17,841 nt of DNA. Source: Lachnospiraceae bacterium (GTDB lineage: Bacteria > Bacillota > Clostridia > Lachnospirales > Lachnospiraceae). A program made the position numbers and the translations under genes. Positions 2,621-17,241 of the stretch are shown here, piece by piece. A model generated the notes under the pieces. The model was not told the DNA's origin and ran no database searches. It saw nothing but the letters and a program-made list of their open reading frames with translations. How positions within the stretch are numbered: position 1 is the first letter of the stretch; each line of letters opens with the position of its first letter. The stretch lies in contig JAFUXY010000530.1 in NCBI GenBank assembly GCA_017477005.1, forward strand, positions 1-17,841, in the 5' to 3' direction.

Positions 2621-3619
2621 ATGGGCGCTTTGGACGCGGTGGGGAAGCGGTATTTCTCCGACAATTTCCGTTTTGCCGACGCTTTTAATTATCTGATATA
2701 CGACGGGGAGCCAGTCATAAAGGCGGACGAGCTTGCGGAGTTGGACGCCACGCAGATAGCTGTTCCGTTTGGAAACGAGGCGAGCCTTCCCATGCAAAAG
2801 TATCGGGATCTGCTGAAAGTCTGGGAAGCGAAGAGGGACGCCAATATGATCTACGTCATTCTGGGAGGCGAGATGCAGGGCAGCATCCACTACGGGATGC
2901 CGGTGAAGGACGGGCTCTACGACATGATCGGCTATTCGAAACAGATAGAGGAGGCGCGGCGCTCTTATAGGAGGAAAGGGAAGAGGGATGATGGACGGCC
3001 TGTTGGGAACCCGCAGGAAGGGGAGGGGAACCTTGTCATTGAAAACGGGACTCTGAGAGTCAAATTGACCAACGACGAGTTCTTGTCCGGCTTCCGGAAG
3101 GAGGACAGGCTGGTGCCGATCGTGACGGCCGTGATCTATGTGGGGGCGAGCCCGTGGGACGGCTCGATGTCGCTGCATGAGATGATGGAGTTCAGGGACG
3201 AGCGGATCCGACGGTTTGTCCCGGATTACAGGATCAACCTGATCTCGCCCGCGGACATGGGGGAGGCGGAAATCGAGAAGTTCCGCTCGGATTTGGGCTT
3301 TTCCATGGACGTTCTCAAGCATCAGAACGAGGATGCCGACAAGATAATAGAATCGGTTGGTCACAAGAATATAAACGGGGATACTGCAAGATTTCTAAAT
3401 GTAGCAGCAAACATGGGATTTAAGATAGACGAGAAGGAAGGAGAGATAGATATGTGCTTGGCTATGGAGAGGCGGTCTCAGAAAGACCAGATAACTGGCG
3501 CAATCAATGGGATGCGGGCGATGGGGGCATCAGATTCCGATATTATTGAAAAGGTTATTGAATTGTATAGTGTCACTAGGGAGTATGTTCTTGCGCTGCT
3601 TGCCCCGCAGACGGCATGA
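2621..3619 (+). CDS. PD-(D/E)XK nuclease / Rpn-type transposase-family protein
   Basis: This 332-residue protein resembles the Rpn-like or 'PD-(D/E)XK nuclease family transposase' proteins of Lachnospiraceae. The layout fits: FADAFNYLIYDGEPVIKADEL at residues 18-38, then a YRD segment (Asp62), then ExQ in GGEMQGSIHYGMPV (Glu84, Gln86), followed by a tyrosine/glycine segment, GYSKQ. The middle holds PIVTAVIYVGASPWDG and a DYRINLISPADM stretch typical of these proteins. AGGGAGGGAG (2606-2615) precedes the ATG. Base composition jumps inside the gene: 3121-3180 is about 67% G+C while 3361-3420 is about 37%, so the last 90 or so codons look grafted on. The role (DNA cleavage or RecA-independent recombination) is known only for relatives. 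Confidence 0.75.
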   Translation: MGALDAVGKRYFSDNFRFADAFNYLIYDGEPVIKADELAELDATQIAVPFGNEASLPMQKYRDLLKVWEAKRDANMIYVILGGEMQGSIHYGMPVKDGLYDMIGYSKQIEEARRSYRRKGKRDDGRPVGNPQEGEGNLVIENGTLRVKLTNDEFLSGFRKEDRLVPIVTAVIYVGASPWDGSMSLHEMMEFRDERIRRFVPDYRINLISPADMGEAEIEKFRSDLGFSMDVLKHQNEDADKIIESVGHKNINGDTARFLNVAANMGFKIDEKEGEIDMCLAMERRSQKDQITGAINGMRAMGASDSDIIEKVIELYSVTREYVLALLAPQTA

Positions 3620-3631
3620 ATGAATCGAGTA

Positions 3632-3766
3632 TATTTTAGGGGAGGGTGGTCTCCCAATATAGCGGGGTATTGGTGTGGATTGTACCAACACCCCGTTTTT
3701 GATTTCCCAAGCAGACTTTCCTGGTGCCGGTCTGTCTGGTCGGTATGGAGAAGATTTGGGTGATTG
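3632..3766. repeat. 135-bp hairpin-rich repeat, copy R-A
   Basis: The same 135-bp sequence recurs at 4360-4494 with no indels and about 18 substitutions counted by eye. It begins TATTTTAGG and ends GATTG. It contains a G+C-rich hairpin (arms 3663-3674 and 3684-3695) and a second stem-loop around GTGCCG...CGGTAT (3724-3746). Copy R-A begins 13 bases after the nuclease stop codon. On its other side it is joined directly to a second copy of the nuclease 3' end. Confidence 0.85.
3663..3700 (+). terminator. Rho-independent terminator within R-A
   Basis: The stem CGGGGTATTGGT / ACCAACACCCCG has 11 of 12 positions paired and a 9-base loop, and is followed directly by TTTTT (3696-3700). It lies 43 bases after the nuclease gene, so it probably ends that transcript. 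Confidence 0.75.
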
Positions 3767-3968
3767 GTTCAAGATAGACGAGAAGGAAGGAGAGATGGAT
3801 ATGTGCTTGGCGATGGAGAGGCGGTATAAGAAGGAGCAGATAACTGGTGCAATCAATGGGATGCGAATAGCGGGTCTGGATGACGAAACAATTATAGACA
3901 AAATCATTGAAGCTTATAATGTCACCAGGGAATATGTTCTTGCGTTGCTTGCTCCGCAGACGGCGTGA
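3767..3968 (+). pseudogene. Truncated second copy of the nuclease gene 3' end
   Basis: From 3767 the sequence matches 3418-3619 closely, reading FKIDEKEGEMDMCLAMERR and ending VTREYVLALLAPQTA, the same C-terminal tail as the full-length gene. About 260 N-terminal residues, including all of the nuclease core, are absent, and the upstream sequence is repeat R-A. The frame stays open upstream to a GTG at 3675, but that codon lies in the terminator loop and has no ribosome binding site, so translation is unlikely. The two tails differ most in the middle (GMRAMGASDSDI versus GMRIAGLDDETI) and share their ends. The pattern is conservative, which may mean both copies evolved under selection before this one was cut down. 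Confidence 0.8.
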
Positions 3969-4004: not shown

Positions 4005-4300
4005 TTAGCTGGGGTGTTTATCAGATTGAAGTAAGATTCCACCCCTAAGTGCGAGTTTCGAACCCGCAGTTGGGATGAAAGTGACAAAAATCGGTTGAAA
4101 TCCTTTCCGTATTATGATAAATTGTATTCGTAACTGTTCATTATGAGAAATCAAGAATACGGGTTGTTGTGTACCACCTTGAGGAGCTGCAACTCCCCAA
4201 GGCAAGGTATGGTATTCAGACTGCCACACAATACAGCCAAAGCTGCGATACACATTCGCATTATAACACAAAAAAGACCATGATTACTAGATGCATTTAA
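4005..4300. other. Unidentified structured non-coding stretch, possible mobile-element remnant
   Basis: There is no credible gene here. The sequence is rich in pairings: GGGGTG (4011-4016) with CACCCC (4040-4045); GCGAG/CCCGC around TTTCGAA (4051-4067); and a stacked hairpin at 4172-4214 with TACCA/TGGTA outside, CCTTG/CAAGG and GGAG/CTCC inside. TTGTGT (4167-4172) and ACACAA (4226-4231) extend it. An 88-codon minus-strand frame (4005-4271) crosses the structure, but its codon at 4271 has no good ribosome binding site. The stretch separates the truncated nuclease tail from repeat R-B and may be an insertion between them. I do not recognise the family. Confidence 0.4.
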
Positions 4301-4359
4301 GCGATTTCACGTTCACGGGAGCTTTTCTTTTGGTGTCTTTTTGGGTTTGTTTTGCATCG

Positions 4360-4494
4360 TATTTTAGGCGAAGGCGGCCTCCAAATATAGCGGGGTGTTG
4401 GTGTGGAATTTACCAGCACCCCGTTCTTGATTTCCCAAGCATACTTTCCCAGTGCCGGTCTGTCTGGTCGGCACCGGGAAGATTTGGGAGATTG
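4360..4494. repeat. 135-bp hairpin-rich repeat, copy R-B
   Basis: This is the second copy of the repeat at 3632-3766. Both hairpins are kept: CGGGGTGTTGGT / ACCAGCACCCCG (4391-4402, 4412-4423) and GTGCCG / CGGCAC (4453-4458, 4470-4475). Changes in the arms trade Watson-Crick pairs for wobble pairs, so the fold rather than the exact sequence is preserved. The tail after the first hairpin is TTCTTG, a poorer T-run than in R-A. Confidence 0.85.
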
Positions 4495-4506
4495 AGATTG
4501 AAAGGA

Positions 4507-4555
4507 AGCTGTCAGGAGACGGATTTGTTTCAGTCTGTTTTCTGACGGCTTTTTT
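4507..4555 (+). terminator. Rho-independent terminator
   Basis: AGCTGTCAG (4507-4515) pairs with CTGACGGCT (4542-4550) over 9 bp with one G-T wobble; AGAC/GTCT extend the pairing inside, and TTTTTT follows (4550-4555). It insulates the recombinase gene from upstream transcription. Confidence 0.85.
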
Positions 4556-4647
4556 GTGTTATGGAAATGGCATGATAGAGTTTTCCTGAAAACATAGTTT
4601 GTATGCTCAACTTGGCTCAAAAGTCATGAGGGAGGAAGGAGGACTCT

Positions 4648-5265
4648 ATGGAAAAAACAAGTATCACTTATGGTTATGCGAGGGTCAGCACAGCACATCA
4701 AAACGAAGAACGCCAACTGGTCAAACTGAAGGACTATGGAATCGATCCCGACAACATCTATACGGATCATATCACAGGGAAGAGCTTCAACCGTCCCGGA
4801 TATGCAAAGATGCTGCAAAATTTGCGTCCGGAGGATGTGGTCGTTGTCACAAGCCTGGATCGGCTGGGGCGAAGCTATACAGAAATTCCTGAGCAGTGGA
4901 AAATCCTGACAAAAGAGAAAAAGGTGGAGATTGTCGTCCTTGATATGCCGATTCTCAACACAAAAGACAGGACGGATGATCTGATGAAAACCTTCGTCTC
5001 GGATTTGATACTGGGCATCCTGTCCTACACTGCGGACATCGAGCGGAAAATGAACCATCAAAGGACGATGGATGGGATTGCGGCAGCGAAGGCGAGGGGC
5101 GTGAAATTCGGGAAAAAGCCGTTGGTTGTGCCGGATGAATTTCCGCAAGTCTACAAACTGTGGGAGAGCGGAGAATTGTCGGCGAACAAGGCTTCGCAGA
5201 GGCTCGGAGTGTCGAGAAATACGTTTCTGAAGTGGGCCCGTTCCGTAGTGTCTAGTGGGTGTTGA
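4648..5265 (+). CDS. Serine recombinase, DNA invertase/resolvase type (Hin/Gin/Mpi-like)
   Basis: This is a 205-residue small serine recombinase. The catalytic domain has YARVSTAHQ with nucleophile Ser14 and Arg12, then SLDRLGRS (69-76) with the conserved Arg pair, and the E-helix signature TADIERKMNHQRTMDGIAAAKARG (128-151; Glu132-Arg133). A short C-terminal helix-turn-helix (176-198, GELSANKASQRLGVSR) binds DNA. Length and order match Hin, Gin, Cin and Mpi, not the large serine integrases. A very strong GGGAGGAAGGAGG site precedes the ATG. The gene ends 23 bases before the first of two inverted hix-like sites, so its likely job is to invert the 5302-5464 segment. It stands outside the segment and keeps its own upstream region in both orientations. 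Confidence 0.96.
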   Translation: MEKTSITYGYARVSTAHQNEERQLVKLKDYGIDPDNIYTDHITGKSFNRPGYAKMLQNLRPEDVVVVTSLDRLGRSYTEIPEQWKILTKEKKVEIVVLDMPILNTKDRTDDLMKTFVSDLILGILSYTADIERKMNHQRTMDGIAAAKARGVKFGKKPLVVPDEFPQVYKLWESGELSANKASQRLGVSRNTFLKWARSVVSSGC

Positions 5266-5288
5266 TGAGTTTGGAAGAGAAGAATGTC

Positions 5289-5314
5289 GGTCAATATTCC
5301 TTGGTTTTTTGACC
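5289..5314. repeat. Left recombination site (hix-like, 26 bp)
   Basis: Two 12-bp half-sites face each other around a 2-bp TT core at 5301-5302. Read inward, the outer half is GGTCAATATTCC and the inner half is GGTCAAAAAACC, alike at 9 of 12 positions. The layout (12 + 2 + 12 with ...ACC AA GG... on the other strand) is that of hix, gix and cix crossover sites. The 16 bp TCCTTGGTTTTTTGAC (5298-5313) recurs inverted at 5453-5468. Confidence 0.88.
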
Positions 5315-5378
5315 ACATACATAGCACTCTATTATGCCAATACAGCATTGTAAACTATGCACAAAATTAAGTTATTTT

Positions 5379-5407
5379 ATAATAGCATCATATAGGAAAT
5401 ATGTCAA
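5379..5407 (-). promoter_or_regulatory. Strong sigma-A promoter inside the invertible segment, pointing left (OFF state)
   Basis: On the minus strand: -35 TTGACA (5402-5407), exactly 17 bp, then TGC TATTAT, an extended -10 with five of six consensus bases (5379-5384). The start site would be near 5372, running toward the recombinase 3' end as antisense RNA. On the plus strand a TATAAT overlaps (5378-5383) but no acceptable -35 lies 16-18 bp upstream, so rightward initiation should be weak in this orientation. Confidence 0.85.
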
Positions 5408-5451
5408 ATTTATGAATGCTATATTTCCAGACAACATCCTTCCGCAAGACC

Positions 5452-5477
5452 TGTCAAAAAACCAAGGATTTTCTACC
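5452..5477. repeat. Right recombination site (hix-like, 26 bp)
   Basis: The half-sites are TGTCAAAAAACC (5452-5463) and, on the other strand, GGTAGAAAATCC (5466-5477), around an AA core at 5464-5465. It is inverted relative to the left site, and the cores read as TT and AA on the same strand, as inversion rather than deletion requires. It ends 24 bases before the ATG at 5502, so the downstream ribosome binding site stays outside the segment. Confidence 0.88.
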
Positions 5478-5501
5478 GTAGATTGTGGAAGGAGGGCAGA
5501 A

Positions 5502-7487
5502 ATGTTTCAAAAGATGAGAAAGGGATTGGCGATTGGATTGGCGGCATCGATGTTGATAGGGAGCGTGTTTTGGGTCACAGCTCCAAGGGCTGTATATGCG
5601 GCTGAATGGATGGATGTGGAGGGAGAAGCGGAAGGTTCTGAGCAAACATATGTTAGTAGTGAGATTGAAGACACAACAGATGTTGATATTTCCAAATTTG
5701 AGGAAAGTATTCCAGACGAGGGTATGGAGGATTCAGAAGAGGAGGATTGGAAAGAGGATTTTGCGTCACAGTATACAGGTGAATCTGAGGATGTGGGGGA
5801 AGATTCATACGGAGTCATAGAACCAAATTCGCAAGAGGAGAACTTGGCCGTTGAGGGTGGAGAAGACGAAACGATATATGGCTTGGATGAGAGTGAAGAA
5901 ACAGAGGATGAGGCAAAGCCTGAGTTGGATTTTGAAGAATCACCTAGAAATGAAAAGGAGGATTTACAAGAACAGACGAGGGATGAGGATTGGAGTGAAA
6001 GGAATGATTTTGAGTATAATGAATTAAAGGCGAAAAGCGAAGAAGAGATTTCAGATGTGGTGGATGGCGTTGTTGAAGAAAGTTTAGAGGAAGATACAGA
6101 GAGCGCGCAGGCAGACAGGCTTGGATACAGTGGGTTTAATACGCAAGGAACCGCTATGAATATTTCTCTCAATAAGGAATATACGGATTTTCTGGATGCT
6201 AGTAGTGATAATGTTTACATTGAAAACTATTATAAATTTAAGATAAAGAATCCGGGATATATACGTTTATCTTACAAGCATTACAGCTACGATGACGACG
6301 GGGATGCTTTGTGGTGGTACTATATTTATAAAGAGGGGAATGAGAATATTTTTGACGCAGGAATTTGGGAAGATATTACCTCAGACACGGTGCTGATTTC
6401 AGGAGTTTCCCCGGGGACATATTATCTAAGGGTTACAACAGGGTGGGCGAAGAAAGGGTATACTGCTGCTTATTACGGAATTTATGGGAGTTATAATGAT
6501 TATAGTAGAGGGGTGACTGATGCAAACTATTCGTTCAAAATAAACTACTCTGCATCTTCGGTATGGGAGAGAGAGATGAACAATAGCATTGCAACTGCAA
6601 ATAAAGTGGCAATAGATAAGAAGTATCACGGAAATAGTGGTTCTTCTGATGGATATATAGACAATGACTACTACAGTTTGACGTTGGATAGTGAAAAGAA
6701 ATTAAATTTTAATTTCAAGCATAGTCGCATTGACGATGGCCATGAGGATTTCACTCATGCCTTTGAAGTGTACAAGGGTGGTGTGGATCAATGCATAACA
6801 AGGGAAGTGGTTTCCGAAAAAGTTGAGTCGAAGACAGTAAAATTGGGTACACTGGCTAAGGGAACCTACTACATCTGTATTCATAGATATAGAGATGACT
6901 ATTTAGACAAGAGTGAGTATTCATTCAGTGTAGACAGAGTCAAACTCAACCAGTCGCTCAGCTTCAAGTCCCCATCCTCCTTGGTTCAGGGGAAAAGCAG
7001 CACCTTAACAATCAATGGAGCGAAGGGGGCTTTATCCTATAAATCGTCCAATCCAGGGATAATTTCGGTATCGAAGATAGGGAAAAATAAGTGCAAGGTG
7101 TCTGCCAAATCTCCAGGCACTGCTAAAATCACTATTACGGCGGCTGCTACGAATGACTATTATGCGAAAACAAGCACAGTTTCCATAAAGATTTATCCTG
7201 CAGGAACAGCGATTACCTCATGCAAGAATATAAAAGGCAAAAAATTACAGATAAAATGGAAGCGGAATAGCAAAGTTTCAGGCTACCAAGTGCAATACTC
7301 CCGTTCGAAAGCATTTAAGACCTCGAATAAATCCAAATTGTTGAGTGGGAATTATTCCACAACATTTACCGCAGAGAAGCTTTCGAAAAAGACCTATTAT
7401 GTGAGGGTTCGTACTTATAAATTGGTCGGCAGCAAGAGGTATTATTCCGCATGGTCACAGGTCAAAACTGTGAAAATCAAAAAATAA
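5502..7487 (+). CDS. Exported acidic-leader protein with PPC-like, Ig-like and fn3 domains
   Basis: A 661-residue secreted protein and the first gene after the invertible promoter. The start at 5502 is chosen because GGAAGGAGGG (5487-5496) precedes it and a signal peptide follows at once: basic MFQKMRKG, a hydrophobic core, and a VYA-A cleavage site near residue 33. The upstream in-frame codon at 5334 lies inside the invertible segment. Residues about 38-205 are extremely Glu/Asp-rich and low in complexity. Next come two PPC-like beta domains (about 216-350 and 355-478, with GTYYLRV and GTYYICI strands), a BIG2-like domain (483-563) and an fn3 domain (568-661, with GYQVQYSRSK) that is rich in lysine. 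There is no LPXTG motif. Binding to wall polymers through the basic end is inference. Confidence 0.88.
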   Translation: MFQKMRKGLAIGLAASMLIGSVFWVTAPRAVYAAEWMDVEGEAEGSEQTYVSSEIEDTTDVDISKFEESIPDEGMEDSEEEDWKEDFASQYTGESEDVGEDSYGVIEPNSQEENLAVEGGEDETIYGLDESEETEDEAKPELDFEESPRNEKEDLQEQTRDEDWSERNDFEYNELKAKSEEEISDVVDGVVEESLEEDTESAQADRLGYSGFNTQGTAMNISLNKEYTDFLDASSDNVYIENYYKFKIKNPGYIRLSYKHYSYDDDGDALWWYYIYKEGNENIFDAGIWEDITSDTVLISGVSPGTYYLRVTTGWAKKGYTAAYYGIYGSYNDYSRGVTDANYSFKINYSASSVWEREMNNSIATANKVAIDKKYHGNSGSSDGYIDNDYYSLTLDSEKKLNFNFKHSRIDDGHEDFTHAFEVYKGGVDQCITREVVSEKVESKTVKLGTLAKGTYYICIHRYRDDYLDKSEYSFSVDRVKLNQSLSFKSPSSLVQGKSSTLTINGAKGALSYKSSNPGIISVSKIGKNKCKVSAKSPGTAKITITAAATNDYYAKTSTVSIKIYPAGTAITSCKNIKGKKLQIKWKRNSKVSGYQVQYSRSKAFKTSNKSKLLSGNYSTTFTAEKLSKKTYYVRVRTYKLVGSKRYYSAWSQVKTVKIKK

Positions 7488-7510
7488 TATAATGGTAGAG
7501 GGGAACAAAA

Positions 7511-8494
7511 ATGATAAAGAGATTGATTATTATATCCATTTGTATAAGTTTGATATGTGGATTATGGGGATATGATATAAATGCAAAAGCTAATAAAGTG
7601 CAAGCACTGGAGGCATATGCGGGCTTTATGGGGGAGCCGCATAAATTATGGAATGATAGCAGGTACACAACGGATGAAGGAGTCGAGTTTAAGACAATTG
7701 ACGTAAATAAAGACGGCACCCCAGAACTATTGATCTATGACAAAGGAAGTTATGTGGCGTTAGGATATTGGGGACTGTATGCTTATGTACAAGGAAAAGT
7801 CAAATTGATACAAGACTTCGTGGAATCGGTGGATTTTTATCCGAACAAAAGGGGAGTTATCTTTATCGATGAGAATCATGGAGGAGGTCATCGGGAGGAG
7901 TGTTGGACCTTTGACGGGGAGAATTCAACCTTACAAGTCAAACTTGTTGCCGGTTTTGATTCCAATTATCAGGTTGATTACAGTACAGCGGAATGTATAG
8001 ATGGAAATGGAAATAAAATAACGATGGACGAATTCTATTCTGTTAAGAACAACCTTGTTGGAAAGAGCAAAATGGTAAGAGGATATGACGACAAATTACT
8101 AAAGAATACGAAATCCAATAGGAAAAAGTTTCTGTCGGAGGCAGTAAATAATAGTAAATCCAAAGGGGAATACTGGCTATATGGAATCGGTCCCGGAGGA
8201 TCAGGAGGGACATCGGACGATGCGGTTGTGGATTATTCTCACGGTAAGTTGACAATATCCGGTCTTTGGGGGAAAGGAAAGACGAAAGAGCAGGCACAAG
8301 ACGCACATCGTGCCTGGGTGGATGAGACTTTTCCAGTAGCAGATGATTGCAAATACGTGACAGTCGATGACGAGGTGGTCACTAGAAAATTAAATCAGAG
8401 TTTGGTGGATCAGAAAGGGATATATTTCTGTGCGTTTGGTGTAAATATCCATGTTAAAAATGGAAAAATTACTCAGATAATAGAAACAAACTGA
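7511..8494 (+). CDS. Exported protein with calcium-loop-like motif, unknown function
   Basis: A 327-residue protein that follows the previous gene by 23 bases with its own AGAGGGG site. The N-terminus is a signal peptide (MIKRLIIIS, hydrophobic to about residue 19, possible cleavage after AKA at about 27). Residues 64-72 read DVNKDGTPE, a calcium-binding-type loop seen in EF-hand, dockerin and many Lachnospiraceae secreted proteins, followed by ELLIYDKGSYVALGYWG. A glycine-rich GIGPGGSGGTSDD stretch separates the N-terminal part from a C-terminal domain (about 235-327). I do not recognise a family for the whole protein. Its place in a run of exported proteins suggests an extracytoplasmic role. 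Confidence 0.82.
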   Translation: MIKRLIIISICISLICGLWGYDINAKANKVQALEAYAGFMGEPHKLWNDSRYTTDEGVEFKTIDVNKDGTPELLIYDKGSYVALGYWGLYAYVQGKVKLIQDFVESVDFYPNKRGVIFIDENHGGGHREECWTFDGENSTLQVKLVAGFDSNYQVDYSTAECIDGNGNKITMDEFYSVKNNLVGKSKMVRGYDDKLLKNTKSNRKKFLSEAVNNSKSKGEYWLYGIGPGGSGGTSDDAVVDYSHGKLTISGLWGKGKTKEQAQDAHRAWVDETFPVADDCKYVTVDDEVVTRKLNQSLVDQKGIYFCAFGVNIHVKNGKITQIIETN

Positions 8495-8519
8495 GAGGTA
8501 GGAAGGAGAATGAAAGATT

Positions 8520-9095
8520 ATGAAGCTTAGAATTCAAACAGGTGCGATGATCCGATGGTTGACAGCCTTAATAATCATTACTTTGAGTTCAGTATTTTTC
8601 GTACCCTTAAACGCAGAGGCAGCGAGAACGATCAACCTCAGAGACAAATATGCCGCGGACACGGGAAAGACATTTGTAGAAATAAAGGCAAAATATGGAT
8701 GGACTGCCGAAATGGGACAGAACAATGCCGGGCATGGAGCGTTAGTAGATTTTACAGTACCAGGAACAGGTGTTTGTTATTATTTTTTCGGGAACACGGA
8801 TACTTGGAAGGTAGAGGAAACTTCTAACCTTTCGACAATCGAAGGAACTGTCGAGGAATTATTTAAAGGCGTAAAGAAGGACTATTCTCTTGCGTGGTTT
8901 GTCAACAAGCTTTCAAAACAAGGGGCGGCAGAGTATGATATCATAGGCGACACAGGATCGCCGTACCTTCCGGAAGGAAGTTTTGCATCGATCAATTATA
9001 CCACGAAAAGTGGGAAGGTGATTAATATCAATATAAAGCTACAAAGCGACTCAGACCTAACAATATATAGGAATGCGTATGTACAAATACGCTGA
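8520..9095 (+). CDS. Small exported protein, unknown function
   Basis: A 191-residue protein with a clear signal peptide: MKLRIQTGAMIRW, a hydrophobic stretch to about residue 29, and an AEA-A cleavage site after residue 34. The mature part (about 157 residues) is mixed polar with aromatic strands such as GVCYYFFG and ends in a beta-rich ININIKLQ region; it has two internal lysine-rich helical candidates. AAGGAG (8503-8508) is 11 bases from the ATG, slightly long. No domain is recognised. It lies 25 bases after the previous gene with no terminator between. Confidence 0.78.
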   Translation: MKLRIQTGAMIRWLTALIIITLSSVFFVPLNAEAARTINLRDKYAADTGKTFVEIKAKYGWTAEMGQNNAGHGALVDFTVPGTGVCYYFFGNTDTWKVEETSNLSTIEGTVEELFKGVKKDYSLAWFVNKLSKQGAAEYDIIGDTGSPYLPEGSFASINYTTKSGKVININIKLQSDSDLTIYRNAYVQIR

Positions 9096-9156
9096 CGTGA
9101 CAGAATTTTGATATCTTTTGGAATACCAACAATAGTTCATTTGGGGAGGATAAGTA

Positions 9157-9579
9157 TTGAGGAAAAAATGGTTATCTTTTATATTTTGTATTACTATTTC
9201 TATAATTATCAGTTTTTCACATAGCCAGGTGGTGGAAGCGTCAAGAAATGGATGGTATTATAGCTATGAGGCAAATCTAGTGCCGACTCTGTCTGGATAC
9301 TCTTATGATAGCATCTTCATTGAAGGAAACACGCTATGTGTCAATGGTTCTCTTAGAAAAGCTTCATCGAAAGGCGAATTATTCGGAGAAAATTCAAAAA
9401 TATCAAAGAGGAAAGATTGGAGATTTAAATTTTCTGATAAAGTAAAATATTATAACAGTCTTGGCGAGGAGGAGCCATATCCTGTCTCAAAGGAAGATTT
9501 TTCCAAGATGGGATATGTGGACATTCTATTTCATGTAAAAGGTGGGGAAATCGTGTATATTAAGGGGGCACTTCACTAG
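9157..9579 (+). CDS. Small exported protein, TTG start, unknown function
   Basis: A 140-residue protein read from TTG at 9157, six bases after GGGGAGGA (9143-9150); no in-frame ATG offers a better start. The N-terminus RKKWLSFIFCITISIII is a typical signal peptide with likely cleavage after VEA (residue 28). The mature part is about 112 residues, rich in Tyr, Ser, Gly and Lys, and ends GGEIVYIKGALH. A possible weak internal promoter (TTGATA 9108-9113, 17 bp, AATAGT 9131-9136) precedes it. No family is recognised. Confidence 0.72.
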   Translation: MRKKWLSFIFCITISIIISFSHSQVVEASRNGWYYSYEANLVPTLSGYSYDSIFIEGNTLCVNGSLRKASSKGELFGENSKISKRKDWRFKFSDKVKYYNSLGEEEPYPVSKEDFSKMGYVDILFHVKGGEIVYIKGALH

Positions 9580-9615
9580 AATGACAGAGAAGCGTGACCT
9601 ATGAAGGGAGGGGCA

Positions 9616-10356
9616 ATGGAGATTCACAAAATACAAATAAAAAAGATAGTGTGTTTAGTTGCTATTTCAATCATACTTACACACATATATGCCTTACATT
9701 TCGATGCTGAAATAGAAGTAAAGGCGGCAGGAAAATCTTTGCCGGTTGCATTATCTTTAGAACAGCAGTATGAGGCAAATATATTTATGAGCAATTTTGC
9801 TGAATTAATTATTAGGAAGTTTAATGTGGACAAAGCAGGCGTAGGAGAGATGGTGAATTTCGCGGTTTTGCATGCTATTGTGAATAGAAAGAGCATGATT
9901 TTGTTTGATGGGACCATGGAGCGAATGTCATTGCAGGATGTAAACATTATTTTGTTGCGGTTTTTTGGGAAATCATTGTCCGACCAGCAGATTGTGGAGT
10001 ATCAGGCGTCCGGTGGCAAGGAATATTTTTTTGAGCATGGATATTATTCAAACGGGTATTTTTATTGGCCAGTAGGAAATGGTGAATCCTATGTCGGGGT
10101 ATGTATTGTGGATAGGGTAGAAAGCTACAAGGATGGTTCCCAGAGACTGTGGTACACCTTGTATGACTATGACGTAGACGAATATTGGAAGAATGACTGG
10201 AGAGTTCCAGATGCGATTTACAGGATGACTCCTTCGGAAGCTGCATCAAACCAGTATCTGAGCAGGTCGGGAAGCGGTTTTGCGGATGTGGTTCCCTATT
10301 CATATAACGGGAGAAGCTCGTACCAATTGAAGAGGATGAAGACGAACAAGAAGTAA
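9616..10356 (+). CDS. Exported or membrane-anchored protein, unknown function
   Basis: A 246-residue protein. The ATG at 9616 is preferred over the in-frame ATG at 9601 because GGGAGGGG (about 9606-9613) lies between them and would serve only the second. A hydrophobic segment (about 11-28) follows a basic IQIKK, and VKA-A near residue 37 could be a signal peptidase site, so it is either secreted or N-terminally anchored. The mature part contains a mostly helical region (about 45-135) and then a Tyr/Trp/Gly-rich region (GYYSNGYFYWPVGNGESYVG) of likely beta structure. The C-terminus is basic. No family is recognised. Spacing to its neighbours is 36 and 54 bases. Confidence 0.75.
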   Translation: MEIHKIQIKKIVCLVAISIILTHIYALHFDAEIEVKAAGKSLPVALSLEQQYEANIFMSNFAELIIRKFNVDKAGVGEMVNFAVLHAIVNRKSMILFDGTMERMSLQDVNIILLRFFGKSLSDQQIVEYQASGGKEYFFEHGYYSNGYFYWPVGNGESYVGVCIVDRVESYKDGSQRLWYTLYDYDVDEYWKNDWRVPDAIYRMTPSEAASNQYLSRSGSGFADVVPYSYNGRSSYQLKRMKTNKK

Positions 10357-10410
10357 TGTAAAATTTCATTCAAGTTATGGCGGCGTATAAGAGTTGAGAG
10401 GTTTATATGA

Positions 10411-11067
10411 ATGAGTAGGTTTAGGATAGTTTCATTATTGGCGGCCTCAAGCCTGATGGCGTTTACAGGTTGCTCAACGACCGGATCCGGCGAGCCACAG
10501 ACGGAGGTTCAGGTAGTTAATAATCTTGGCAGTGCCGATGGAAATGTTTATTCTGAGTCTGATGAATCTAGAATCGCAGATGTGTTGGAAGATGCTGGTG
10601 CTTTGGCAGATAGCGGAGACTATGAGGCGGCACTTATACTGATTAAGAAAGGCCTAAAAGAGTTCCCGAATTCAAAAGCCTTAGAAAATATGCGGAAGAA
10701 ATATAGAAAACAAATCCGAGCAAGCACTGAAGTAACGGAATCTGAGAATGTTTCTGATATGGATGCGAAGCCCGCATCTTCTGTGCCTGCTTCTGTAGAT
10801 GTTCACCAACCTTTCTACGGAATATGGGTCATTGGCACGAAGGATTATACAGAAGCCAACAATAAAGCACAGGAGGTCAGAAATAACGGGTTCGATGGTC
10901 AAGTGTATGTCACAACAGATTGGAGCAATCTGAATAGTGAAAGGTGGTTTGTAGTGACCGCTGGATCGTATCCAAATGAAGAATCCGCGAAAGAAAAGTT
11001 GCCAAATGTACAGGCCTTATACAAGGACGCATATGTGAAATACTCTGGATCTTGGAAAGGGTATTGA
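10411..11067 (+). CDS. Lipoprotein with TPR-like helices and a SPOR-like C-terminal domain
   Basis: A 218-residue predicted lipoprotein. A lipobox AFTG-C with Cys21 follows MSRFRIVSLLAASS, so the protein should be lipid-anchored to the outer face of the membrane. Residues about 55-102 (ALADSGDYEAALILIKKGL) look like one or two TPR-type helical hairpins. After a Ser/Pro-rich spacer comes a domain (about 132-212) with the paired-repeat pattern of SPOR domains: FYGIWVIGTKDYTEA early and RWFVVTAGSYPNEESA late. SPOR domains bind glycan-denuded peptidoglycan. It could therefore tie other products of this operon to the cell wall. The SPOR call rests on pattern only. GAGAGG (10396-10401) is the ribosome site. 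Confidence 0.8.
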   Translation: MSRFRIVSLLAASSLMAFTGCSTTGSGEPQTEVQVVNNLGSADGNVYSESDESRIADVLEDAGALADSGDYEAALILIKKGLKEFPNSKALENMRKKYRKQIRASTEVTESENVSDMDAKPASSVPASVDVHQPFYGIWVIGTKDYTEANNKAQEVRNNGFDGQVYVTTDWSNLNSERWFVVTAGSYPNEESAKEKLPNVQALYKDAYVKYSGSWKGY

Positions 11068-11148
11068 AAAGGAAAAGCCAGTAATATGATCTGAGCCTTT
11101 GGGTGTTGATTTCGATATAAAAAAATGGATTTGGAAGGAGGGAATGCG

Positions 11149-14100
11149 ATGCTAAAAAACGTGAGAAAAGGGTTGGCATTGGGAATGGCTGCTTCCATGC
11201 TCATGGGGAGCGTGTATGGGGCTGCAGGTCTGAGGGTGATGAATGCGGCAGAAATTAAAGAAGGTGAAGTAGGATTGGATGATTCTATAGATATAGAAGT
11301 GAACGATTCCGAGGAAATCAGCGCTCAGGTTGAAGATACAGAGTCCGAGGAGATGGAATCCTCTGAGCAGGAAGAAAACGCAGAGTTAGATAATGAGATT
11401 AGGGATACGGATGGAGCGGAGGAGTTATTGGAGTCTAAATCTGTAGAGGAATCGGAAGCATTCCTGGCCGATGAGGAAATAGAGATCGAAACGGTTACAG
11501 AGATATCGGAAACATTGGGAGCAGAAATTGTAGCTTCAGGAGAATGCGGGGCTGACGGCGATAATGTTACTTGGATGCTGGACTCCAAAGGAACTTTGAC
11601 AATTAGTGGGACTGGAGATATGAATAATTACGATCTCTTGTGGGATAATGATTATCCGCCATATTATGACTATAAAAATGATATCGAACATGTAGAGATT
11701 AAAGATGGAGTGGTGAGCATCGGACACTTCGCTTTTATCCACTGCCTAAACTTAAAGAGCATATCCATTCCCGTTGGCGTAACAAGCATCGGGAATGACG
11801 CTTTTGAGAGTTGTGAGAGCATGGAGAGCCTATTTATTCCCAATAGCGTAACAAGTATTGGAGAGTGGGCTTTTGCTGCTTGTTACAGTTTGAAAAGCAT
11901 ATCTATCCCCAACAGTGTGACGAGCATTAAAGACGGTGCCTTTTGCTATTGCAAGGGGGTGGAAAGCGTATCCATTTCTAGCAACGTGGAAAGTATTGGT
12001 AAGTGGGTTTTCTATGATTGTGAGAGCTTAGAAAGCGTATCCATTCCTGAAGGGGTGAGAAACATTGAGGGTTATTCTTTTTACGATTGCAGTAGTCTGA
12101 AAAGCATATTTATTCCAGAAAGCACAATGGTGATTGGGGAGCAAGCTTTTATAAATTGCGCATCTTTGTCAGATGTTTATTACTCTGGGTCCGAAGAACA
12201 ATGGGAGAGAATTACTAAAGAGAAAGGGAATGAATGTCTGGAAAACGCAACCATCCACTACAACAGTAGGGGCAGTATTGGAGAAGATAGGGCATTGAAC
12301 AACTGTCTGATCATTTTATCTCCTACGTCTTTTAGTTATGATGGTACGGAGAAAAAACCAACAATCACTGTGAAAAGATTGGAGAATGGCAGTTTGAAAA
12401 ATGACTATCTTCTCGAAGAGGGGAAGCACTACACGGTTTCATACGAAAACAATGTTGATGCTGGTAGGGCTAAGGTGATTTTGCAAGGGATCGGCGATTA
12501 CACAGGAAAAATCATAAAATATTTCGATATCGTTAGCGAAAAGTCGGATAACACAAGTCAGGCATCTGATTTCAAAATCGGCTCATCCCAATCCGGAGAA
12601 TCAAAAGATCCTGAGTTACTTCGGTTCTTTCCTGGGGATTGGAAGCTATCTGTCGCTAATTATCCTGTTAAGCTAAAAAAAACAACGGAGACGGACGGCA
12701 GCTATAAAGTAAAATTATCCATTGGAATCGGGAGAGAAGATATTTTAGACGATGAAACGGAATGGGACAAATTAAAAAAATGCATCGATGATGCCGAAAA
12801 AAGTGAAAAAACCTATGCGAATTTAGCTAGGCTTATAGACGCTAATGGCAAGTGGCGAGAGAATATAAAAACCAATCATTTTGATGTCATGCCGAAGCTT
12901 GGATGTATGGGTTATGGAGAGATAAAGTTGGACAAGGACGGAAATGTCTTGTCCCAAACCGTGAAAGTGGCTGCAACAGCCGATTGGAAAAAAGGAGCAA
13001 CTTGGGCGTTTGCGACTCCCATTGGACCGATGTACTTTGAGTGGAAGTTCGGGGCAAAAGCAAAGGGAAAAATTGGACCAAAGTATGACATAAAGAATGA
13101 CAAATGGGTAATCATGGACGGCAGTTTTTCTGTTGAACCATATGGTTCAATAGAAGGCGGGTACGGGTTTGCAAAAATAGCGACCATCGGTGCCAAAGGT
13201 GAAGCTAAAGTTCCCATTACCATTATTCCCCAAAGTAGTGGAAAAATAGAAGCATCTGCCAATGTGCATTTGTATGCGATGTTCCTGGTCGATGAAGAGT
13301 ACACACTTGCAAAGCTCACGGTACCGCTGTGGGGAGATAATTCAAATATGACAAATGTGTCCTATAGTGCAGATACTTTGTTTTCACCCGAGGAGTATCT
13401 GCTTGAACCGATCAGTGAAGACTATATCGACACCGCCTTTACCAAAGAGACTACTGAATGGGAAGGAGAAGTTGATGTCTTGACCTCTTCTAGAGAGAGC
13501 GGCGTAAACATTTTACAGGAGGGGATATTGCCGTCATCGTTACCCATGATGACTAGCATTGGGAGTAAAAAAGTACTTGTATGGCAGGCATTTGACAAAG
13601 ATGGAGACAAACTCAATGCATGCAAATTGATGTACTCTGTGTTTGAAAACGGACAGTGGTCGGAGCCTAAAATAGTAAATAATGATGGAACGTCTGATTT
13701 TTACGCAGATTTCAAAACTATAAATGGGAAAGCGGTTCTTGTATGGCAAAATATGGACACAAAACTGGGGAGTGAAGAGGATGTGAAGAGTGCGTTAATG
13801 GAAATGGGTTCTCATTCAAAAATATATGCCGCTATATTTAATCCAAATCACAACCAATTTGAAACCGTTATGAGCGTGAGTGGCGAAGAAACAGGCATGA
13901 TGCCGCAAGTCTTTGAAGATGGAACGAAAACAGTTATTACCTATGTGCAGAATTCGAATGATGATATGATGCAGGCTTCAGGAACAAATTCTATCTTGCG
14001 AAGAACATTAGAAGCTGGTGATCTGTCTGGGAAAACGACGCTCATTACCACGAAAGATATGGTGGAAAATTATGTATATCAAAATGGCGATGTGTACTAT

Positions 14101-16815
14101 GTGTCAAGAAATGCTTCTGATGATACGCAGGCAGCGGCTCTCCGCAATAAAGCGGGACAAGTCGTTTCATCTTCAGATGGAATAGCGGAGAATGTATCCA
14201 ACGTTATGAATGCAGGCGGAAAAATTGTATACCTTGAAAATGGACTGTTGTACGTTTGCGGATCTGGAAATACATCTAGCCTGATAGGAGACGTAATTCT
14301 GGGAAGCGGAACTAAATTCTGCACGAATGGCTCAAAAACTGGATTTGTATGGACTGAATATGACGAAGCATCGGACGTAGGTAGAATAAAAGCTTCCTTG
14401 TTGGGAGATAGCGGATATTCCGAGGCAATAACCCTTTATGAAACGGAGGGTTCTATCTATCGCTGCATCAGTCCGGAATTGGATGACAATGACCAATGGC
14501 AGATTGCCGCTTGCGTGGAGAACTCAAAATCGGGTTTATGTTCCCTTGTATATATAGAACGGAACGAGGCGACAGACATGGCGCTGGATTATGCTTCCAT
14601 AAATGAGTTTGACGTTCAAGAGAATGGTGACACCGGTGTAGATTATTATGTGACCAATACGTCTGACAAGAAGATTTCCGACGTTATTATGGAAGTAAAG
14701 GCCTCAGATGGTTCTTTATTGGCAACAAAGGAAGTTGACATCACTATTGCTCCTGGAGAAAGCACATCTGGAACGGAATATTTAGACTTAAGTGGGCTAT
14801 CAGGGGCAACTGACGTGGAACTTCTTGTATATGCGAAGGGGCAAAACGACATAGTTGACAACGTTGTGTCTGAAACTGTCGGATTGCCTGACGTGAGCGT
14901 TTCCGCCAACTATGCCGAGGATGAGGAGAACGTGTATATATTCACTGATCTGAGCAATACTTCTGCAAACGATGCAGAGAATGTCCGATTGTCTATTTCA
15001 GAGGATGATAAAAACTTGCATTCGGAAAGCGGAATTTCCATCTCTTCAAGAGGGGAGAAAACCATCGAGTGTTCGCTGGCAAAATCCGACATCTTCTATA
15101 ATTCAGACGGAATAGCGTACTTAAAACTAGAAGCAGAAGCTGGAGATGGAGATTATAGCCTTGATAACAACGTGGATTATGTGATTCTATATGGCGATAA
15201 ATACGACGGTGGGAAGGGTGATGACTATGATCCATTCCCGACTGTTGCCCCTGATTCTGATTCAATTCCAGATCCAGAGTCTGACCCAACACCTTCGCCT
15301 ACTCCAAGTACTGTTTCCGTTACCGGCGTGAAACTAAATAAAGAATCCGATTCCATCGAAGCAGGGAGAGCTATCACACTCCAGGCCATTGTGTCGCCTG
15401 TTGACGCGTCAAACAAGTCAGTTACGTGGAAGAGCAGCGATGAGAAAATAGCTACGGTTGATTCGTCAGGCAAGGTTACAGGAATTGCCGAAGGAAAGGC
15501 AACCATAACTGTTACGACTGAAGATGGTAACAAGACAGCGGTATGCGAGATTACGGTAAATCCTGAAAAAAAGAATATTTCGAACGCTACAATAGAGGCG
15601 ATAGGCGATCAAAAGTATACTGGAAAAGAAATAAAGCCTACGGTTGTCGTAAAGTACGATGGGATTACCCTGGTCGAAGGGACAGACTATAGTGTAACAT
15701 ACAAGGACAATGTGGACGTAGGTGATGCAAGCATAATCATTGAAGGTAAGGGCGAATACGCTGAATCTAAAACGGTCACATTCGCCATTGTTCCGGTCAA
15801 CGTTACAGGTGTGTCGCTCAGCAAAACAGATTTGTCCATCGTCGAAGGCAAAACGGCTACGCTTACAGCCACTGTGGCTCCTGCAGATGCGACAAACAGG
15901 AAGGTGGCGTGGAAGAGTTCAAATACTAACATTGTCTCTGTTGACTCTAACGGAAAAATAAGCGCTTTGAAGGTGGGTACTGCGGATATTATCGTCACAA
16001 CTGATGATGGAAACAAGACGGCAAAGTGCAGCGTGACTGTAAAAAGTGCCACAGTTGCTGTGACGGGGGTAAAACTTAATAAGTCATCTGCGAGTGTAAA
16101 TGTAGGCAAGGAAGTGACGCTTAGCGCGACTATTCTTCCAAAGAATGCCACAAATAAAAAAGTTACCTGGAGTTCCAGCAACAAGAGCATTGCTACAGTA
16201 AATTCTTCTGGTGTTGTGAAGGGAGTCAAGAAAGGAAGCGCCACAATCACCGTAACAACAATAGACCAGAAGAAGACGGCGAAGTGTACCGTAACTGTAA
16301 AACCGATTTCTGTATCTAGTGTTTCGTTAGATAAGAAAACGTCATCTATTGTAAAGGGTAAGATATTCACACTCAAAGCGACAGTGAGTCCTTCTGATGC
16401 CACAAACAAGAATGTGACTTGGAAATCGAGCAATACGAAGATAGCAACTGTTTCATCGAAAGGAGTGGTTAAAGGGGTTAAAGCCGGAACTACTACCATT
16501 ACCGTTACTACAAAGGACGGTAAGAAAACAGCGAGCTGTAAGGTCAAGGTCACCAATCCGGTTGTCAAAGTAAAATCCGTGAAGCTGAACAAGAAGTCAG
16601 CGTCTGTTAAGAAAGGAAAGACACTTACGCTGAAAGCCACAATTAGCCCTTCAAATGCCACAAACAAATCGGTTACTTGGAAAACCTCTAATAAGAAGAT
16701 TGCCGCGGTGACAAGCAAGGGCGTTGTCAAAGGCGTCAAGAAAGGCACAGCGACTATCACAGCGACAACAAAGGACGGGAAAAAGACTGCAAAATGCAAA
16801 GTAACAGTGAAATAA
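11149..16815 (+). CDS. Giant surface protein: LRR_5, MBG-like, CARDB-like and five BIG2 domains
   Basis: A 1888-residue exported protein. The start at 11149 follows GGAAGGAGGG (11133-11142); the in-frame ATG at 11125 lies before that site. The signal peptide (MLKNVRKGLALGMAASMLMG, cleavage near NAA, residue 34) and the acidic leader (about 36-125) resemble those of the 661-residue protein. A GTLTISGTGDM cap (about 131-160) leads into BspA-type leucine-rich repeats (178-371), ending in YYSGSEEQW. An MBG-like domain follows (about 386-460), then a long unrecognised middle, a propeller-like region (about 790-1140), two CARDB-like domains (about 1144-1354), a Pro/Asp linker (1361-1388), a BIG2, an MBG-like domain (1473-1549) and four BIG2 domains to the end. 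There is no LPXTG motif or S-layer domain; the C-terminus is strongly basic. Adhesion is inferred. Confidence 0.92.
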   Translation: MLKNVRKGLALGMAASMLMGSVYGAAGLRVMNAAEIKEGEVGLDDSIDIEVNDSEEISAQVEDTESEEMESSEQEENAELDNEIRDTDGAEELLESKSVEESEAFLADEEIEIETVTEISETLGAEIVASGECGADGDNVTWMLDSKGTLTISGTGDMNNYDLLWDNDYPPYYDYKNDIEHVEIKDGVVSIGHFAFIHCLNLKSISIPVGVTSIGNDAFESCESMESLFIPNSVTSIGEWAFAACYSLKSISIPNSVTSIKDGAFCYCKGVESVSISSNVESIGKWVFYDCESLESVSIPEGVRNIEGYSFYDCSSLKSIFIPESTMVIGEQAFINCASLSDVYYSGSEEQWERITKEKGNECLENATIHYNSRGSIGEDRALNNCLIILSPTSFSYDGTEKKPTITVKRLENGSLKNDYLLEEGKHYTVSYENNVDAGRAKVILQGIGDYTGKIIKYFDIVSEKSDNTSQASDFKIGSSQSGESKDPELLRFFPGDWKLSVANYPVKLKKTTETDGSYKVKLSIGIGREDILDDETEWDKLKKCIDDAEKSEKTYANLARLIDANGKWRENIKTNHFDVMPKLGCMGYGEIKLDKDGNVLSQTVKVAATADWKKGATWAFATPIGPMYFEWKFGAKAKGKIGPKYDIKNDKWVIMDGSFSVEPYGSIEGGYGFAKIATIGAKGEAKVPITIIPQSSGKIEASANVHLYAMFLVDEEYTLAKLTVPLWGDNSNMTNVSYSADTLFSPEEYLLEPISEDYIDTAFTKETTEWEGEVDVLTSSRESGVNILQEGILPSSLPMMTSIGSKKVLVWQAFDKDGDKLNACKLMYSVFENGQWSEPKIVNNDGTSDFYADFKTINGKAVLVWQNMDTKLGSEEDVKSALMEMGSHSKIYAAIFNPNHNQFETVMSVSGEETGMMPQVFEDGTKTVITYVQNSNDDMMQASGTNSILRRTLEAGDLSGKTTLITTKDMVENYVYQNGDVYYVSRNASDDTQAAALRNKAGQVVSSSDGIAENVSNVMNAGGKIVYLENGLLYVCGSGNTSSLIGDVILGSGTKFCTNGSKTGFVWTEYDEASDVGRIKASLLGDSGYSEAITLYETEGSIYRCISPELDDNDQWQIAACVENSKSGLCSLVYIERNEATDMALDYASINEFDVQENGDTGVDYYVTNTSDKKISDVIMEVKASDGSLLATKEVDITIAPGESTSGTEYLDLSGLSGATDVELLVYAKGQNDIVDNVVSETVGLPDVSVSANYAEDEENVYIFTDLSNTSANDAENVRLSISEDDKNLHSESGISISSRGEKTIECSLAKSDIFYNSDGIAYLKLEAEAGDGDYSLDNNVDYVILYGDKYDGGKGDDYDPFPTVAPDSDSIPDPESDPTPSPTPSTVSVTGVKLNKESDSIEAGRAITLQAIVSPVDASNKSVTWKSSDEKIATVDSSGKVTGIAEGKATITVTTEDGNKTAVCEITVNPEKKNISNATIEAIGDQKYTGKEIKPTVVVKYDGITLVEGTDYSVTYKDNVDVGDASIIIEGKGEYAESKTVTFAIVPVNVTGVSLSKTDLSIVEGKTATLTATVAPADATNRKVAWKSSNTNIVSVDSNGKISALKVGTADIIVTTDDGNKTAKCSVTVKSATVAVTGVKLNKSSASVNVGKEVTLSATILPKNATNKKVTWSSSNKSIATVNSSGVVKGVKKGSATITVTTIDQKKTAKCTVTVKPISVSSVSLDKKTSSIVKGKIFTLKATVSPSDATNKNVTWKSSNTKIATVSSKGVVKGVKAGTTTITVTTKDGKKTASCKVKVTNPVVKVKSVKLNKKSASVKKGKTLTLKATISPSNATNKSVTWKTSNKKIAAVTSKGVVKGVKKGTATITATTKDGKKTAKCKVTVK
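11680..12262 (+). repeat. BspA-type leucine-rich repeat array
   Basis: About seven 23-residue units share the pattern SLKSISIPNSVTSIGxxAFxxC. Related units include the segments beginning at about 11743, 11812, 11881, 11950 and 12019, a 69-bp period. LRR_5 arrays of this kind form curved solenoids on bacterial and protozoan surface proteins. Confidence 0.85.
15319..16812 (+). repeat. C-terminal BIG2 domain array with one MBG-like insertion
   Basis: Five BIG2 units begin at about 15319, 15799, 16057, 16312 and 16567; each opens VTGVKLNK-like and holds NKxVTWKSSN and GxATITVTTxDGxKTA. An MBG-like domain (15568-15795, YTGKEIKPTVVVKYDG) sits between the first and second. Acidic residues drop and lysines rise toward the C-terminus. 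Confidence 0.88.
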
Positions 16816-17241
16816 ATAGGCAACTAAAAGCCGAGGTATAGAGAGGAGAAAAAATGATATCATTTGTGTATTTATCAAGAAATACATCCATTAGCTTTCG
16901 CAAGTTAGTGGGGTGTTTATGCTTGATTGTTGGGCGACGAATTGTACGCGGCAGCGACGACGAATTGTATGAGGGAACGAATGTAGCAAGAACGACAGTT
17001 TTTTATCGGAACCACAGGTTTATTGTGGTGTGTGCGACACATTGTCATAGCCCTTTCAGACGGCTGGACAGGGTTGATCCCCAGTCATCTTCCAGTCGCG
17101 TGAAAAGGCTATGCATGCAAACCATAGCCATTAAAGTAACCAGTTATTGTTGAAGAAATGGGGGTGTTAGCAAGGAAGGAAACTATGCCGCATTGGCGGG
17201 CTCCAACAGTAAAAGCATCCCCCAGTTGGGAAGTCTGGCCG
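16816..17241. other. Region with palindromes and no well-supported gene
   Basis: No terminator with a T-run follows the giant gene. A 99-codon plus-strand frame (16854-17153) has an AGAGGAG site six bases before its ATG, but its product resembles nothing I know and it contains a large palindrome, so it is probably not a gene. CGACGAATTGTA occurs twice (16935-16946, 16958-16969). ACCACA/TGTGGT form a small hairpin (17011-17029). Imperfect 23-bp arms pair at 17046-17068 and 17091-17113. TGGGGG (17159-17164) and CCCCCA (17219-17224) may pair at longer range. Confidence 0.35.

Follow-up and report, generated by a model that had tools for sequence, protein, structure and literature searches.

A predicted promoter-inversion switch beside a small serine recombinase gene in a Lachnospiraceae bacterium, and the phased site pairs of its family

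In the Hin/hix type of switch (Salmonella Hin, with Gin and Cin), a small serine recombinase inverts a promoter between 26-bp sites (PMC3798978, in the sections available to us). The segment that Hin inverts spans about 1 kb, and the reaction depends on an enhancer, bound by Fis and placed about 100 bp from one of the hix sites (PMC3798978 and PMC4817059, likewise in part). The locus described here, in a stretch of 17,841 nucleotides from a Lachnospiraceae bacterium (the window), shares the type of enzyme, the size of the sites and the enclosed promoter with Hin. Unlike in Hin, its segment is only 165 bp long and the recombinase gene lies outside it.

Mpi of Bacteroides fragilis is also a serine recombinase that inverts promoter regions of surface genes, and its targets are 13 or more regions dispersed over the genome (PMC5903667, PMC5386303, both in excerpt). 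The window enzyme, unlike Mpi, adjoins its site, and the 14-mer CCTTGGTTTTTTGA has exact copies only in the two window arms within the assembly (2.60 Mb, 76.4% complete), four further places carrying it with one base changed. Its match to the NCBIfam Mpi model NF009949 reaches 53.3 bits against an equivalog cut-off of 272 and does not class it as a master invertase. By score the locus is thus a small serine recombinase system other than Mpi, one that would work like the Hin and fim switches.

The order of recombinase gene, invertible promoter and surface operon is that of the fim switch of Escherichia coli (fimE-fimS-fimA). There FimB and FimE are tyrosine recombinases, with 9-bp repeats of a 314-bp element; the switch shows a strong OFF bias with FimE present, and its orientation feeds back on the neighbouring fimE via the fimE terminator in fimS (PMC9993118, PMC5386303, as far as the available text goes). 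In the window system, unlike in fim, such feedback is a proposal by analogy.

Bacterial invertons were reportedly charted by read mapping with PhaseFinder by Jiang et al. in 2019. Like the predicted segment of the present locus, read-mapped invertons are invertible promoter segments near recombinase genes, in Clostridia-like Firmicutes_A (PMC11892184), and Clostridia made up 14 of the 15 signature-positive Firmicutes in PMC5903667 (both sources in part). For the linked groups PMC11892184 names tyrosine-type recombinases or integrases; its main text, in the form available, has no word beginning with "serine", and its available description includes neither stop-codon docking nor helical phasing. 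Here we describe a locus that is, in all likelihood, a switch working by promoter inversion and carrying its own invertase, of the serine type, and place it among its relatives.

Sites, promoter and operon of the window

An earlier note on this DNA had proposed an on/off switch built on a 16-bp perfect inverted repeat. The repeat reads as claimed (TCCTTGGTTTTTTGAC at 5298-5313, its complement at 5453-5468), and so does the position of the segment between a small serine recombinase gene and an operon (Table 1). The arms are parts of two 26-bp imperfect palindromes of 12-2-12 layout with a TT/AA centre, inverted relative to each other. Palindromic matches number 9/12 in one site and 8/12 in the other, in the zero register only (at most 4/12 after a shift by 1 to 3), and the two sites agree at 21 of 26 positions. 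Hin-type sites have a 2-bp non-palindromic core, and the hix sites have the same 12-2-12 layout, with a CC-AA-GG centre similar to that of the window sites. We therefore find in the window both the site form of the Hin type, two inverted 26-bp imperfect palindromes (12-TT-12), and the arrangement of a promoter inverton, two inverted sites that enclose a promoter next to a gene of the same direction.

The site pair is beyond chance. Taken as 26-mers, the inverted pair has 22/26 matches, and the best pair in 300 dinucleotide shuffles averaged 15.7 (maximum 20) for the 236-bp intergenic stretch and 16.4 (maximum 19) for a 601-bp stretch. A third copy of the site above the shuffled best is absent from the window (the next has 18/26; 20 shuffles gave 16-19). 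The left site begins 23 bp past the recombinase stop codon, and the first ATG of the operon is 36 bp beyond the right core.

Table 1. Features read or predicted in the window, by position in the whole stretch
Feature	Position	Strand	Detail
Terminator-like hairpin upstream of invertase gene	4505..4552	+	another at 4389-4425
Small serine recombinase, invertase candidate, 205 aa	4648..5265	+	catalytic domain and C-terminal helical DNA-binding region
Left recombination site (predicted)	5289..5314	+	GGTCAATATTCC-TT-GGTTTTTTGACC
Predicted invertible segment, core to core	5301..5465	.	165 bp; core spacing 163 bp (15.5 turns)
Strong sigma-70-type promoter	5379..5407	-	TTGACA-17-TATTAT, TG extension; 11/12 consensus bases; faces invertase
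Right recombination site (predicted), inverted	5452..5477	-	GGTAGAAAATCC-TT-GGTTTTTTGACA on minus strand (5477-5452)
GGAGG ribosome-binding site, operon gene 1	5491..5495	+	read in the sequence
Operon gene 1, 661 aa	5502..7487	+	hydrophobic N terminus (export inferred), acidic region
Operon gene 2, 327 aa, probably exported	7511..8494	+	hydrophobic N terminus
Operon gene 3, probably exported	8520..9095	+	no Pfam match
Operon gene 4, probably exported	9157..9579	+	no Pfam match
Operon gene 5, probably exported	9616..10356	+	no Pfam match; alternative longer start 9601 is the form scanned
Operon gene 6	10411..11067	+	lipoprotein-like N terminus (by eye); weak SPOR match, 20.3 bits, cut-off 21
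Operon gene 7, 1896 aa	11125..16815	+	signal-peptide-like N terminus (by eye); BspA-type leucine-rich and Big_2 Ig-like repeats
Terminator-like hairpin past operon	16887..16912	+	

The window protein is a small serine recombinase by its catalytic domain and, in the structure model, by its fold. It matches Pfam Resolvase (PF00239) with 104.6 bits, and the residues that are invariant across 25 family members (Y10, R12, S14, which we take to be the nucleophile, R22, D71, R72 and R75) are intact. The model (mean pLDDT 87.0, pTM 0.61) aligns to gamma-delta resolvase (1zr2_A) with TM scores of 0.69/0.76 and to a resolvase:Hin chimaera (2gm4_A) with 0.67/0.76. Elsewhere in the window, a gene that weakly matches YhgA/Transposase_31 appears, by eye, to have its end duplicated as a second fragment downstream (2621-3968).

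The earlier note had also placed a strong promoter between the repeats. The promoter is there; what the claim lacked is its direction, which is on the minus strand, leftward and away from the operon. It is the best of 11 promoter-like sites in 4300-7600 (7.2 +/- 2.9 in shuffles). By weight-matrix score it reaches 12.4, the best plus-strand site in the segment 7.8 and shuffled segments a mean of 6.9 +/- 1.3; the weights, here and in the family scoring below, were typed from general knowledge. Since the strong promoter faces the invertase, the assembled orientation is, as read from sequence, probably OFF for the operon. A computed core-to-core reversal puts the promoter at 5359-5387 on the plus strand, the end of its -10 element 115 bp before the ATG.

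The proposed course of events follows from these parts. The recombinase would bind both sites as dimers, pair them, cut the 2-bp cores and exchange strands, so that the 165 bp are reversed; by analogy with a pair of related loci (L274/L275, below), crossover in the window sites would fall inside the core region. In the assembled orientation the operon would be disconnected and antisense transcription from the promoter would enter the invertase gene at its 3' end, and after inversion the promoter would transcribe the operon.

The seven genes spanning 5502-16815 are separated by gaps of about 20-60 bases and probably form one operon; the only other plus-strand terminator-like site between 5265 and 16887, at 8967, is weak and inside a gene. 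Six of the seven have hydrophobic N termini by a crude measure, and the start of the seventh looks similar by eye. The first and last genes have, also by eye, near-alike signal-peptide-like starts (MFQKMRKGLAIGLAASMLIGSV at 5502, MLKNVRKGLALGMAASMLMGSV at 11134). A weak fn3-like match at the C terminus of the first gene product (23.5 bits) is below the Pfam cut-off of 25. The second gene product found itself alone in a search of 5.8 billion proteins (1 protein of 968 candidates), and in 98 genomes it had, besides itself, one match at 24% identity.

Site pairs, promoters and inversion across the family

The recombinase has at least 7999 relatives (of 8000 candidates scored; E <= 0.001). A comparison with 145 related genomes gave no close copy of it. 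Four of five listed genomes of the same genus gave no match and the fifth a best match at 32% identity. An inverted copy of the window locus was not found among the genomes compared; there is one assembly of the species to compare.

The geometry of the window recurs at the 3' ends of recombinase genes. In a first set of 63 recombinase ORFs (60 with room, window included; first site within 75 bp of the stop), a site pair scoring at least 28 was found at 39/60 recombinase 3' ends vs 4/221 other 3' ends in the same contexts, and at a score of at least 29 at 38/60 vs 0/221. An enlarged set, partly hand-picked and again including the window, gave pairs of at least 28 in 106/172 and of at least 29 in 101/172, the remaining 66 of 172 having no pair of at least 28 by the stop codon. 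It consisted of 100 regions hand-chosen among the matches listed (397 genomes, E <= 1e-60; some near contig ends omitted), the window, L002, L041-L100 and L188-L226, duplicates and six genes without room being excluded; because the regions were chosen by hand, 106/172 is not a random sample. The genus searches around G044, G127 and G139 took in 4, 10 and 3 genomes, respectively. In the enlarged set the first site starts at a median of 9 bp past the stop codon (5-95% range -19 to +33, with -75 to +75 allowed in the scan), a range that includes the +23 of the window, and the median core-to-core distance is 138 bp.

Relatives also occur on viral contigs. A single-protein scan of these contigs found none; an alignment scan gave, among the best 80 of 256 relatives, 61 testable loci, with pairs of at least 29 at 12 downstream and 3 upstream of the gene. 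A DNA search of plasmids gave no match, and searches with the protein gave, among the matches listed, only relatives below 60% identity, both in phages (230 records) and in plasmids (at least 5000 records).

Several variants of the arrangement were seen. In some loci (e.g., L048 and L052) the site pair is upstream of the recombinase gene instead. In L264 (G396:C1:1979017-1980441) two convergent recombinase genes seem to share one invertible segment, and L032/L051 (G019:C51) has three site copies, so that more than one segment could invert. Two genomes of one family have a second 16-bp inverted repeat around the recombinase gene, about 50-100 bp outside (L012:1433-1448/2148-2163 and L029:1413-1428/2161-2176). 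Six contigs end within about 150 bp downstream of the recombinase (G265:C29, G269:C19, G388:C100, G008:C35, G186:C29 and G287:C24); mixed inverton orientations might break the assembly there, downstream ends only having been counted.

The orientation of the promoter is biased across the family segments scored. In the first 39 segments the better promoter was toward the recombinase in 29 and toward the downstream gene in 5 (score difference >1), and in 106 segments in 51 and 18, respectively (difference >2; the rest undecided). The bias is seen in the 37 strong promoter cases (30 and 7) and when each cluster is represented by a single locus (25 and 10 of 52), whereas the same stretch at pair-negative recombinases gave 13 toward the recombinase and 17 downstream (of 58). 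The distances from the -10 element to the core downstream of it form groups near 30 and 41 bp, in loci with OFF-facing and with ON-facing promoters alike, as expected if the ON forms are the same cassettes reversed. In the window the distance is 78 bp, outside these groups.

A co-directional gene follows within 260 bp in 86 of 105 loci with room. The earlier note spoke of surface genes, which fits the window operon and does not extend to the family: exported targets were not enriched, with a hydrophobic N terminus (the crude measure) in 30/86 downstream genes vs 24/77 in the background. The genome of the window has two more family recombinases with site pairs. In L041 (contig C228; 2593-2805, 3095-5580) the pair stands before a sigma-70-type factor and a peptidase/ABC exporter closest to the NHLP family (627 bits, cut-off 853). 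In L060 (contig C155; 5718-5904, 5933-7075) it follows a 334-aa recombinase and precedes a LoaP-like antiterminator (85.3 bits, cut-off 125) and a CpsB/CapC gene, so that this organism may also have a capsule-type locus under phase variation; with its first site 122 bp from the stop, L060 scored negative in both sets.

For one related locus both orientations exist in nature. L274 (G335) and L275 (G453), from two genera, are identical over 598/600 positions upstream and 1000/1000 downstream, and their 118-bp core-to-core segment is identical at 118/118 positions when reversed and at 42/118 when read forward; in a BLAST comparison the middle forms a separate opposite-strand match. The outer left half-site is constant and the inner half-site is swapped, and the crossover therefore occurred in the shared centre of the site. 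G422 (L357) has the orientation of G335, and these three genomes are the only full-length matches among the 397. Behind the L274 switch (L274:601-3897) lie genes for a C5 DNA methylase and an NgoFVII-type restriction enzyme, together with a helicase-like gene. The inverton before this type II restriction-modification island is in one orientation in L274 and L357 and in the other in L275. This is the one clear case. Similar spacer pairs in the enlarged set (score >=38) have the same orientation in 13 of 21 and are reversed in eight. Among these eight are a locus compared with itself, L274/L275, two pairs with relatives of L274/L275 and two that score at the threshold; the reversed pairs other than L274/L275 are weaker. 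At a score of at least 40, none of the 4 pairs of the first set or the 5 of the viral set was flipped, all having the same orientation.

Enzyme-site matching and helical phasing

The sites vary together with the DNA-binding domain of the neighbouring enzyme. Across 103 loci, half-site similarity correlates with identity of the DNA-binding domain at r 0.39 (500-permutation maximum 0.13) and with identity of the catalytic domain at r 0.21. Removing pairs of at least 75% catalytic identity lowers the two correlations to 0.31 (permutation maximum 0.12) and 0.11, respectively; these permutations do not take out every effect of relatedness. L188 and L002, whose DNA-binding domains are closest to that of the window, also have the two most similar sites.

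The distance between the sites is periodic. Core-to-core distances bunch near 84, 95, 105, 116, 126, 137 and 147 bp with gaps between. With viral loci included, 94 representatives of 113 loci give a best period of 10.40 bp, and its R of 0.57 exceeds that of all 2000 jittered sets (mean maximum 0.20). The best-scoring decoy pairs lack a 10.5-bp period: R is 0.07 for 258 other 3' ends and 0.05 for 51 pair-negative recombinases. Within a quarter turn of whole 10.5-bp turns are 93 of 101 genome loci (window included), 10 of 12 viral loci, 44 of 52 distinct lengths and, with one locus per cluster at three clustering levels, 57/63, 20/23 and 11/13. The whole-turn rule is clean for short loops only: up to 155 bp 64 of 66 loci are phased and beyond it 29 of 35, the best period of the 32 distances above 155 bp being 9.35 bp (R 0.48, vs 0.42 at 10.5 bp).

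Most simply read, two sites on a short loop can pair only if both face the same side of the helix, and the phased pairs would then be in use now or have been so in the past. Helical phasing as such is known from invertase systems, earlier experiments on the Hin enhancer being mentioned in PMC3798978 (in the part available). Phasing of paired recombination sites across a natural family was not found in the open-access literature searched.

The window is an exception to the rule. Its spacing of 163 bp (15.52 turns) falls where the distances of the family are sparse, in a trough, and is one of eight exceptions among the 101; it is the main doubt over the activity of the window switch, which may flip slowly or be locked because its 15.5-turn spacing breaks the rule. 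We give some weight, clearly the smaller part, to the reading that the locus is a former switch that is now locked or very slow, which in part is a sub-case of the explanation we prefer. In such a locus the out-of-phase spacing or other damage would block pairing, and the operon would stay OFF or depend on read-through transcription that starts at the invertase promoter. The differences between the two window sites at 5 of 26 positions point the same way as the spacing. Against this, the conserved residues of the recombinase are intact, seven other loci are also off phase and, as seen above, the phasing of loops as long as that of the window is less strict.

Other readings and the meaning of the predicted switch

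Taken together, the observations make the module of the window most likely genuine, a working or recently working switch, and at present probably OFF. The inversion-switch proposal of the earlier note is thus supported in part: the order of recombinase, sites and promoter stands, with the direction of the promoter added and the surface genes confined to the window operon. That switching is the function of such modules is supported in the family by the geometry, the L274/L275 inversion, the phasing and the co-variation of the sites with the enzyme.

The recombinase might instead be a resolvase, and what look like the ends of an invertible segment might be accessory sites that it binds in a res-like element, as could be suspected from the closest solved structures by sequence and fold, which are Sin, the gamma-delta/Tn3 resolvases and the resolvase:Hin chimaera, with the Gin invertase behind. 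We regard this as very improbable: the sites are near-identical and inverted with matching cores, a strong promoter lies between them, and the same geometry is found inverted in nature in L274/L275. The window also has no clear transposase gene, only the weak YhgA/Transposase_31 match (2621-3619; 18.3 bits, cut-off 21). Least credible of all is a static operator pair for a regulator of the operon or the invertase, without recombination, which the palindromic sites around a promoter would suit, as operators can have such sites, but against which stand the co-variation of the sites with the DNA-binding domain of the neighbouring recombinase, the occurrence of the pairs by the stop codons of recombinase genes rather than by other gene ends, and the inversion observed in L274/L275.

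To return to the promoter-inversion switch, a broader view of the family can be offered as a tentative one, more doubtful than the switch itself. The window would belong to a large family whose short invertons each sit at the stop codon of their own recombinase gene, and in which helically phased loops replace the enhancer and an OFF-facing antisense promoter lowers the recombinase that made it, stabilizing the OFF state; the window would be an out-of-phase member with a strong OFF memory. Feedback like that on fimE could, by analogy, account for the OFF bias as well as for the position of the invertons at recombinase 3' ends, the antisense step being the hypothetical part.

Invertible promoters let clonal bacteria hedge between states, and the same device is found here before unlike genes: exported proteins in the window, a capsule-type locus in L060, a sigma factor and peptide exporter in L041, and restriction-modification in L274. 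The phasing rule makes it testable how a serine invertase pairs sites that are mostly about 84-220 bp apart. If the rules of the family hold, switches could be found, and enzymes assigned to their site pairs, from sequence alone and without read mapping.
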